Source of the DNA: Halorubrum salipaludis
GTDB taxonomy: Archaea; Halobacteriota; Halobacteria; Halobacteriales; Haloferacaceae
Direction: 5' to 3'
Length of the DNA stretch: 64,000 nt
Assembly (NCBI RefSeq): GCF_002286985.1
Contig: NZ_NSKC01000004.1
Location: 62,001-126,000, forward strand
Shown here: in pieces, positions 1 through 57,217 of the stretch
How the letters are laid out: every line of letters begins with the position of its first letter
How positions within the stretch are numbered: the stretch's first letter is position 1
Notes under the pieces: generated by a model
Seen by the model: the letters and a program-made list of their open reading frames with translations, nothing else
Databases searched by the model: none
Told to the model about the DNA's origin: nothing
Program-made: the position numbers and the translations under genes

Positions 1-104
1 CGCAGGGCGGCCTCGCAGGCACGCGCCACCGCAATTTTGTTTATAAGTAGTGCTGCGCCGTCACTCACACTTGTTTAAATACTCTATCACCACCGCCGAT
101 CTGC
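1..104 (-). repeat. Structured dispersed repeat, copy A (partial, candidate ncRNA 5' end)
   Basis: Read on the minus strand, this is the 5' part of the structured repeat that occurs three more times in the window. Positions 1-32 match the conserved start GCGGTGGCGCGTGCC and most of hairpin 1, with GCGGCC at 7-12, loop AGG at 4-6 and the partner arm cut by the window edge. Upstream on the minus strand lie CTTATAAA (47-40) and the TATA-like box GTATTTAAAC (82-73), preceded by GCAGATCGG (104-96). The same boxes with nearly the same spacing precede copy C. The rest of the copy lies outside the window. Confidence 0.8.
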
Positions 105-185
105 GAGACCCACTCCCACTATCGTCCGTCACCGTCTCCCCGTCACACCGACAAACTACTTATCGGGTCGGCCGTAATCGCACCT

Positions 186-6904: not shown

Positions 6905-7245
6905 GGGCGGCGGCTAGGCGCGACCGGACAGAGGGAGCCCGACTCCCGTGCCTCTGGCATGAGGAAAGTCCCCCCACCGGCCGGACGGGCGACCGGGCAC
7001 ACGCCCGGAGTCGGAGACGGCTGGCTCTGGAACAGCAACGACACCCCCCACCCCGACCCGTGATTCGCGCGAACCGACCCGCAAGGGAAGGGAGTTAACC
7101 CGATGAGGATCGACGGGTGGGAACGGATGGAACGGCGAATCCTCGCCGGTGCAAGTCCGCGCCACAAGGTAGTCCGGCCACGGCGCGGACGCTCAGCCGA
7201 ATGTCGGGACGAACCGAAGGGGGCTTACTCCCCTCAGTCCGCTTG
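6905..7245 (+). ncRNA. rnpB: RNase P RNA
   Basis: This is the catalytic RNA of archaeal RNase P, which removes 5' leaders from pre-tRNAs. The universal CR-I signature GAGGAAAGTCC occurs at 6961-6971, with a P3-like hairpin CAGAGG...CCTCTG just before it. At the 3' end GGACGAACC...GGGGGCTTACTCCCC corresponds to the CR-V/P2 region (compare the bacterial ACAGAA...GGCTTA pattern). P1 can be drawn as GCGGCTAGG at 6910-6918 pairing with CCTCAGTCCGC at 7232-7242, with single-base bulges. CTTATTCG at about 6896-6903 is upstream. The exact ends are estimates of about 10 nt precision. Confidence 0.9.
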
Positions 7246-7335: not shown

Positions 7336-7650
7336 CCAAAGCCCCAGCAGTTCGCTTATAAGCGGTTATCTGCGGGTTCACGGTGAAGATCTCCAAAGCC
7401 CCAGCCGCGAGAGTGGCGCACACTCGTTGCGCGCCTCGCTCGTTCGCATTGCTCACTCGCTGCGGTGCTTACGTCGTCTGCGCCACTCTCGCGGCTGCCC
7501 CTTTGAGTCCCACCCCACACAGCACCGCAGCCTCACACCTCCCCAACCTCGTCGGCCGGCGCTTATAAGCGCCGGCCGACTCCCTCGCGCGTGCTGTCTC
7601 GCGCCCTTATCAGGGCGCTCGCAGGCACGCGCCACCGCCTCTTTATAAGG
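7336..7650 (-). repeat. Structured dispersed repeat, copy B (candidate ncRNA)
   Basis: This copy lies on the minus strand directly after the CPBP protease stop. In element order it has TTATAA at 7647-7642; hairpin 1 with GCGCCC (7601-7606) and GGGCGC (7613-7618); an identical 30-bp palindrome at 7551-7580; and an 18-bp perfect closing stem pairing 7479-7496 with 7403-7420. The stem is framed by CAAAG-GGGC and GGGG-CTTTG. A 3' module follows, in which the CTGGGGCTTT box recurs 57 bp later (7336-7347) around a small CGCTTATAAGCG palindrome. Unlike copies A and C it lacks the GTATTTAAAC box upstream, because coding sequence occupies that position. Confidence 0.85.
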
Positions 7651-33170: not shown

Positions 33171-33278
33171 ACCGCACGGTTCGGCGGATCGCCGATTGAA
33201 AGTACCGGTCGGGGAACCACGCCGCTGTCGGATCCCTCGATACGGACCCGGCAGCGATCGGGAGCGGGAGTGAGTGTT

Positions 33279-33335
33279 GCAGATCGGTGGTGGTCAGATA
33301 GTATTTAAACGGGCGTGAGCGGCGGCGACGATCGC
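33279..33335 (+). promoter_or_regulatory. Conserved promoter block of structured repeat copy C
   Basis: GCAGATCGGTGGTGG (33279-33293) and the TATA-like GTATTTAAAC (33301-33310) precede CTTATAAAA (33335-33343). Copy A has the same three blocks on its minus strand with the same 30-bp distance from the TATA centre to CTTATAAA. A start site about 25 bp after the TATA would fall just before the structured part. Confidence 0.65.
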
Positions 33336-33770
33336 TTATAAAACCGGGCGGTGGCGCGTGCCTGCGAGCGGCGCGGAAGCGCCGCGAGACAGCACGCGCG
33401 AGGGAGTCGGCCGGCGCTTATAAGCGCCGGCCGACGAGGCTGGGGAGGTGTGAGGTGCTGTGCGGTTCCGGGTGGGAGGGACTCAAAGGGGCAGCCGGGA
33501 GGACGGCTTAGGCGACGCAAGCACCACAACGAAGGAGCGGTAGCGACCGAGTGAGGAGCGTGGTTCGAGACGCCTCCGGCGTCTCGTCATCGCCAGAAAT
33601 CGGAGATTTCTGGCTAGCAGTCAGAACGCTTCGCGTTCTGACGACATCACGAAAGGCGCTTTGCGCCTTTCGAACGACAGCAAGCGTAAGCCGTCCTCCC
33701 GGCTGGGGCTTTGGAGGCGTTCACCGTCGATCCGCAGTCAACCGTTTATAAGTAAACGACTGGGGCTTTA
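33335..33770 (+). repeat. Structured dispersed repeat, copy C (candidate ncRNA, longest copy)
   Basis: This is the longest complete copy. Hairpin 1 pairs GCGGCGC (33368-33374) with GCGCCGC (33379-33385) around GGAA, inside a larger GCGCGTG/CACGCGC stem. The 30-bp perfect palindrome is at 33406-33435. The closing 18-bp perfect stem pairs 33493-33510 with 33687-33704, framed by CAAAG-GGGC on the 5' side and GGGG-CTTTG on the 3' side. The enclosed region carries four extra hairpins. A 3' module repeats CTGGGGCTTT 57 bp later (33760-33769) around GTTTATAAGTAAAC. Sequence from 33771 to 33954 holds no gene, only scattered TATAAAC motifs. Confidence 0.87.
33565..33673 (+). repeat. Array of four perfect short-loop hairpins inside copy C
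   Basis: Four consecutive hairpins have unrelated stems: GAGACGCC-TCC-GGCGTCTC (33567-33585), CCAGAAATC-GGA-GATTTCTGG (33593-33613), GTCAGAACGC-TTC-GCGTTCTGAC (33620-33642) and CGAAAGGCGC-TTT-GCGCCTTTCG (33650-33672). Each has an 8-10 bp perfect stem and a three-base loop. They replace the short variable region found in copies B and D. Confidence 0.9.
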
Positions 33771-33954
33771 CAGATTCTCACCCCAGATCCGTCGATCACG
33801 TATAAACACTCGCCAGAAACACCACAATCCGACTTATAAACAACCGACCCACCGAAATGATTCACCTACTCGCGATATCGCTCACCTGTACGTCCGTATC
33901 GCACCGAAAAAGCCGCGTCGCGGATCGCTCGTTATCGACGCCGATCCGGCCCGT

Positions 33955-56848: not shown

Positions 56849-56962
56849 TAACGGAGTAGTCTTATGCGAAATTCGCCCCGTGCGAGTGATAAAGTTGCTG
56901 TTATAGGTGCGGTGGCGTGCGCGGTGAGGCGGCGACGAGGGGCCCGGAGCCACCGACACGGT

Positions 56963-57217
56963 GCGGTGGCGCGTGCCTGCGAGGCCGCTTTGCGGCCGAG
57001 CAGCACGCGCGAGGGAGTCGGCCGGCGCTTATAAGCGCCGGCCGACGAGGCTGGGGAGGCGTGAGGTGCGGTCGCTGTGCGGTGCGGGGTGGGACTCAAA
57101 GGGGCAGTCGGGAGGACGACGCTCGACGACCAAGCACCGCAACGAGAGAGCGAACAGCGTGAGCGACCGAGTGAGGAGCGCAGCGAGTCATGCGAGTCCT
57201 CCCGACTGGGGCTTTGA
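56963..57217 (+). repeat. Structured dispersed repeat, copy D (candidate ncRNA)
   Basis: This copy sits between divergent aIF2-gamma and DUF5810 genes. Hairpin 1 pairs GGCCGC (56983-56988) with GCGGCC (56992-56997) around TTT. The identical 30-bp palindrome is at 57017-57046. The closing stem is AGTCGGGAGGAC (57106-57117) with GTCCTCCCGACT (57196-57207), 12 perfect bp, framed by CAAAG-GGGC and GGGG-CTTTG. It differs from B and C at stem pairs but keeps pairing. A degenerate second GCGGTGGCG start lies upstream (56910-56925), and GTGCGAGTGA at 56880-56889 matches the spacer before TTATAA in copy A. There is no 57-bp 3' module. Confidence 0.85.

Follow-up and report, generated by a model that had tools for sequence, protein, structure and literature searches.

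A modular, structured interspersed element on the chromosomes of haloarchaea

The 64-kb stretch of DNA analysed here (the window) carries four copies of a structured repeat that we read, with a probability of about 0.55 and judging from sequence comparison, as a non-autonomous, modular, BOX/REP-like interspersed element whose RNA product would act in trans or for the element itself. Compensatory changes preserve its stems, to a degree exceeding both shuffled and slid controls, and the fold and the linker are apparently held by selection while the hairpins are swapped freely. An earlier note on this DNA had called the repeat undescribed, and either mobile or selected in place. No description was found in the open-access literature, and both of the suggested fates apply, as insertion-site polymorphism occurs together with strong constraint on the core.

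Copies in the window and anatomy of the element

Searches with GCGGTGGCGCGTGCC, with a 30-bp palindrome and with GGCTGGGGCTTTG agreed on the four copies as they had been placed before. GCGGTGGCGCGTGCC was found free of mismatches in each copy (Table 1), the exact palindrome was found three times with 0 expected from shuffles, and the GGCTGGGGCTTTG ends gave 6 matches against 0.65 expected. Copy A itself crosses the window edge, and its complete version contains the palindrome with one difference. The palindrome had been described as identical; this is true of copies B, C and D, but it is not constant in the family, in which hairpin 2 had 64 different sequences in 94 copies. Likewise, copies A and C lie where the earlier note put them, but not with the extents that it gave: copy A, placed at about 1–104, reaches window position 119, and for copy C, given as 33279–33770, the terminal arms indicate approximately the longer extent in Table 1. 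The differences among copies include hairpin swaps and nested modules as well as drift. The claim that no copy encodes protein was borne out, the distance between fixed anchors modulo 3 being 0, 1 and 2 in 23, 35 and 31 copies, respectively.

Table 1. Positions of the element copies, their parts and their neighbours in the window
Feature	Positions	Strand	Description
Copy A	1..119	-	5′ part of a long-form copy, remainder just beyond the window edge; TATTTAAA and TTATAAA present, core start at 32
Copy A, terminal arm	96..119		
Copy A, GCGGTGGCGCGTGCC	18..32	-	mismatch-free
RNase P RNA gene	6927..7239	+	neighbour of copy B, convergent with it
Copy B	7337..7650	-	short form: TATA-like box, hairpin 1, hairpin 2, linker, P3, one 3′ module; between CAAX-protease-like gene and RNase P RNA gene
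Copy B, palindrome	7551..7580		exact
Copy B, GCGGTGGCGCGTGCC	7624..7638	-	mismatch-free
Copy C	33264..33874	+	complete long form, both inverted terminal arms present
Copy C, 5′ terminal arm	33264..33287	+	GCGGGAGTGAGTGTTGCAGATCGG
Copy C, upstream AT box	33302..33309	+	TATTTAAA; 35–36 bp before the second box in most long forms
Copy C, TTATAA box	33336..33341	+	14 bp before GGTGGCG; 13–18 bp in most copies
Copy C, GCGGTGGCGCGTGCC	33348..33362	+	mismatch-free
Copy C, hairpin 1	33354..33399	+	covarying stem, invariant tandem G-A internal loop
Copy C, hairpin 2	33406..33435	+	30-bp palindrome version, exact
Copy C, G-rich linker	33436..33455	+	invariant, unpaired, GAGGCTGGGGAGGTGTGAGG
Copy C, P3	33483..33713	+	CAAAG/CTTTG closing stem, conserved GGG/GGG internal loop, long covarying stem
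Copy C, nested module	33560..33679	+	four hairpins, inserted in P3
Copy C, 3′ module	33714..33770	+	TTCACCG...TTATAA...GGGGCTTTA; tandem repeats of the module in some copies
Copy C, 3′ terminal arm	33851..33874	+	inverse of 5′ arm, diverged
Copy D, partial duplicate of 5′ end	56909..56923		
Copy D	56963..57217	+	short form, no TATA-like box nearby; in divergent gap between aIF2-gamma-like gene (-) and downstream gene (+)
Copy D, GCGGTGGCGCGTGCC	56963..56977	+	mismatch-free
Copy D, palindrome	57017..57046		exact

On the + strand, the first part of the element runs from an AT box (TTATAA) through GCGGTGGCG, hairpin 1, CGAGGGA and hairpin 2 to the linker GAGGCTGGGGAGGYNYGAGG, which is followed by a short variable stretch, GGGTGGGACTCAAAGGGG, the stem P3, GGGGCTTTGG, and at least one 57-bp module with TTATAA. 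About a third of the copies are long forms of ~430–610 bp with inverted arms (GCGGGAGTGRGTATTGCARATYGG) at the ends, and these arms carry two AT boxes, 34–36 bp apart in most. A scripted comparison paired inverted arms in 30 of 101 copies, some of these being loose matches, and the rest had no arms. Fifty terminal sites GCGGGAGTGRGTATTGCARATYGG were found in the genome, in inverted orientation at long-form ends, against 0 in the control. Short forms are without arms, and in many the start lies no more than a few tens of bases from a stop codon. Of 103 copies, 78 had a TATA-like box in the 60 bp upstream, mostly 13–18 bp before the core, as against 0 of 112 control stretches.

Small modules nested inside stems of the element, seen in copy C and at L003, L017, L021, and L024, consist of two or four perfect hairpins whose loops have three bases. 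Related hairpin modules were also seen next to an IS200 TnpA gene and close to the 3′ end of a TnpB-like gene (L262:2001-2058, L265:3115-3171). The nested modules have stems that vary between copies and look like independently mobile units. Beside a tRNA-Gly gene, repeated fragments resembling the tRNA-Gly 3′ end (GCACCGGCCGAGA...) are fused to GC-rich hairpins (L112, L116, L118, L120), and a two-hairpin module is inserted into some of them. At one orthologous site in several species, the 5′ half stands alone (hairpins and linker), followed by, for example, CGAGAGAAA (L108, L112, L118, L120). In Halorussus and a related MAG, an alternative 3′ end, GGCTCAAGGAGTAGCTAGC, replaces CAAAGGGGC/GGGGCTTTG (L130, L137, L142, L144, L156), and paired copies may face each other. 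Core-less remnants also occur, in which arms or AT-box modules are joined without hairpin 1, linker, and P3 (L243, L126); decay therefore seems to proceed by internal deletion, not by point mutation.

Host range, genomic placement and movement

Copies were counted with the 20-base linker at up to one mismatch, and the reversed pattern was used as the control. The element's own genome (3.5 Mb, 27 contigs, with the window at C22:62001-126000) gave 133 matches, a family of ~130 copies; the earlier note had expected many more copies from their density in the window. A search of other haloarchaea, which had also been proposed, revealed the family in all 51 other species of the genus that were tested, with 8–193 copies each (control, 0–1), and in other families. 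When the limit was raised to three mismatches, only ~3 more forward matches were gained against 22 on the control, indicating that linkers with further point mutations are very scarce. The covariance model search placed the family in 17 of 57 genera in the order. Halorussus, Haloparvum, Haloarchaeobius, Natronococcus, Halosimplex, and Halobaculum are among the named carriers, as are many named Halorubrum genomes. Consistent with the earlier failure to recognise a known archaeal RNA, Rfam had no match to the element: above the gathering cut-off, RNase P was the sole match in the window, and the others were weak chance matches.

The element is nearly absent from plasmids and viruses. No exact linker copy was present on 18 contigs of 473 kb in total, where ~21 were expected; four records of the plasmid collection, and none of the phage collection, carried the element. 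Two IMG/VR motif matches, which might have been virus-borne elements, and two bacterial MAG matches were rejected, being without hairpins and looking like chance coding matches. In the assembly G000, contigs C23 and C27 begin with nearly identical copies (99% over 347 bases; first 350 bases; L029, L030), and the repeat probably broke the assembly at both starts.

As judged with a simple gene caller, none of 94 copies lay inside a gene. Between convergent genes we found 44 of 91 copies, whereas of 48 pairs of adjacent genes in the window, 9 were convergent; divergent gaps held 13 copies; in tandem gene pairs, 15 copies pointed with the genes and 19 against them. These counts fit promoter avoidance and argue against a sense 3′-UTR role. 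A tRNA gene was present at 7 of 104 element loci. Regular spacing was considered and rejected, the gaps being near random, and so was a replichore-oriented motif: the copies of G019 lie mixed on both strands, and no replichore strand bias was evident.

When the flanks of the copy at C12:24715 were joined without the element, they matched a stretch that was contiguous, or nearly so, in G024, G032, G020, G039, G018, and G036. The site is a short intergenic gap without the element in G032, G039, and G018, and a small TTTATAA-containing stretch remains in G020. With respect to target-site duplication, empty sites were present, but the flanking intergenic DNA was too diverged for the junction to be read. 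Where both flanks of copy C were found in relatives, they were tens of kb apart or on separate contigs, sometimes inverted, and in several relatives the element adjoined one or both of them. Two more of the four loci tested behaved in the same way. Recombination between copies is the simplest cause of such split flanks, with mis-assembly at repeats as a caveat, although copies usually differ from each other by 10–20%.

No transposase or partner protein was found for the element. Terminal sites without a listed core, read for a parent transposon, proved to be further copies or internal-deletion remnants, none with a transposase between its arms. Against its ~130 copies, the element's own genome had two TnpB matches and one TnpA match. 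PF01797 (Y1 transposase) had no match in G016, G019, G028, G049, and G005, each with 82–128 copies, which contradicts mobilisation by IS200/IS605 or RAYT proteins. At eight TnpA/TnpB loci, besides short weak matches, the nested hairpin modules alone were matched, and the core and arms shared no element ends.

Covariation and constraint on the folded strand

The paired arms, for which random drift had been considered beforehand, showed compensatory change instead, both in hairpin 1 and in P3. For 52 copies of hairpin 1, 96.3% of the cells were paired compared with 78.1% in shuffles, and 133 were double-changed compared with 47.6 (double changes in 10 of 17 pairs); because related copies are not independent, these counts and those for P3 below overstate the number of events. 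The covariation score was 0.434, compared with 0.144 in shuffles and 0.05–0.11 in slid controls. The tandem G-A loop was intact in 51 of 52 copies. P3 had 59 distinct outer stems in 98 copies, with Watson-Crick pairs in 1491 of 1666 cells, and its GGG/GGG internal loop was intact in 93 of 98. In nine copies, CGAAG/CTTCG replaces CAAAG/CTTTG as the closing stem of P3; across genera this stem was GAAAG/CTTTC (30), CAAAG/CTTTG (10), CGAAG/CTTCG (4), or GGAAG/CTTCC (1), with one wobble. All three folded parts lay far below shuffles in folding, with mean z values of -4.9, -6.2, and -7.1.

G-T exceeded A-C among the paired cells, with 28 versus 11 in hairpin 1 and 38 versus 11 in P3, which, together with the tandem G-A loop, identifies the + strand as the one that folds. 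In P3, the + strand folded better than the other strand in 93 of 98 copies. For the conservation profile, 20 copies were picked by their termini and not by the linker. Pairwise identity was 0.97 in the linker, 0.98 in CTTATAAA, and 0.95 and 0.94 in the P3 feet CAAAGGGG and GGGGCTTTG, but 0.81 and 0.78 in the termini and ~0.45 just outside the element. An element requiring nothing but its ends for movement would be expected to show the opposite pattern.

Nature of the element and rival explanations

The folded product of the + strand is probably RNA. It would consist of hairpin 1 with its tandem G-A loop, hairpin 2, the unpaired G-rich linker, and P3 closed by CAAAG/GGG-GGG/CTTTG, and might arise by transcription from the AT-box region of the element itself or through read-through. 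Considering that orientation to the neighbours is random, we infer that it would act in trans or for the upkeep of the element, not on a neighbouring gene. Some enzyme may have mobilised the long forms in trans by way of their inverted arms, and recombination between copies would swap hairpins and rearrange the chromosome. With the usual haloarchaeal promoter spacing, the TTATAA ~15 bp before the core would start transcription inside hairpin 1. A full RNA would then need the upstream box of the long forms or read-through, or else the box has another role; the upstream TATTTAAA is the sole box whose start would include the whole of hairpin 1. A Shine-Dalgarno-like role for GGGGAGGYG was rejected, as many copies have C where pairing needs U.

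The same signatures would be expected if the folded form were a single strand of DNA instead of RNA, and folded DNA is the main rival. Here single-stranded or cruciform DNA, like that of REP/BIME or IS200/IS605 ends, would present the hairpins as substrates or protein sites, and transcription would be unneeded. Bacterial REPs are intergenic, chromosome-bound, and rarely between divergent genes, as is the element; G-A-rich mini-hairpins are very stable in DNA, and the TATA spacing is at odds with hairpin 1 being transcribed. We nevertheless regard this explanation as unlikely, considering the five copy-rich genomes without a Y1 transposase match, the G-T excess, which fits RNA at least as well, and the lack of an evident replichore strand bias.

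The convergent excess would also suit a cis-acting 3′-end element that, placed between convergent genes, terminates transcription in both directions or stabilises mRNA. However, insertion tolerance away from promoters explains that excess, tandem contexts are used in either direction about equally, some copies sit between divergent genes, and relatives lack the element at one of the sites tested, which together make the proposal improbable. A plain MITE, neutral after insertion and without a selected product, would account for inverted arms, insertion polymorphism, and absence of coding, but it is very improbable when conservation is far stronger in the core than in the arms, stems are compensated across copies and genera, and many copies have no arms at all. 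We give the least credence to descent from a PATE or another IS200/IS605 transposon. The element is indeed haloarchaeal, non-coding, palindrome-rich, and ~500 bp long, with insert-like hairpin modules near a TnpA gene and at a TnpB-like gene end; but TnpB and TnpA matches are few in its own genome, no ends are common to its core and the TnpA/TnpB loci examined, and its long forms have inverted termini, which are absent from PATEs (PMC3119063).

The repeat appears to work like REP/BIME or BOX repeats, a likeness in behaviour and not a demonstrated membership in those families. With the REP/BIME sequences of bacteria that go with RAYT it shares more than 100 intergenic copies per chromosome (PMC2817692 gives more than 100 REPs per genome), hairpins, mosaic composition, a disfavour of divergent gaps, and rarity on plasmids and phages. 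Unlike them, it has a fold that is much larger, comprises three domains and includes an unpaired, invariant linker; it also has inverted terminal arms on part of its copies and no cognate Y1 transposase in several element-rich genomes. BOX elements of Streptococcus pneumoniae are, like this element, modular, structured, non-autonomous intergenic repeats with a variable number of modules. To our knowledge, there is no sequence or host relation between the two, and the element differs in being haloarchaeal and in that no mobilising transposase was found.

The PATEs and SMRs of Haloquadratum walsbyi are likewise non-coding haloarchaeal mobile repeats (PMC3119063), and the nested modules sit in stems much as SMR-A elements insert in near-terminal palindromes (PMC3119063). 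PATEs, however, have no inverted termini and have ends in common with IS605 transposons (PMC3119063), and neither trait holds for the element core. The long form resembles MITEs in its inverted termini, absence of coding, and insertion polymorphism, but the core is more conserved than the termini, many copies are without termini, and no parent transposon was found, the flanks of the empty sites being too diverged to show a target duplication. The omega RNAs of haloarchaeal IS200/IS605 elements (sotRNA, RF02656 and RF02657, named in PMC12558985) are also structured RNAs tied to haloarchaeal mobile DNA, as is predicted for the element, which differs from them in having no Rfam match and in its ~130 copies versus two TnpB matches in the genome.

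More tentatively, and on balance we think this rather unlikely, the element may represent a new class of large haloarchaeal non-coding RNA that is encoded by more than 100 self-propagating chromosomal copies and acts in trans in a role tied to the main chromosome. Such an RNA might, for example, form a ribonucleoprotein; alternatively, as potassium is molar in the cytoplasm, its conserved GGG tracts might support a fold based on G-quartets. The element is common to every genome of the genus tested and to other haloarchaeal families, and has apparently escaped annotation. It marks sites of insertion and rearrangement and thereby bears on the evolution of haloarchaeal chromosomes, and its conserved fold with freely swapped hairpins constitutes a natural experiment on RNA (or DNA) structure.
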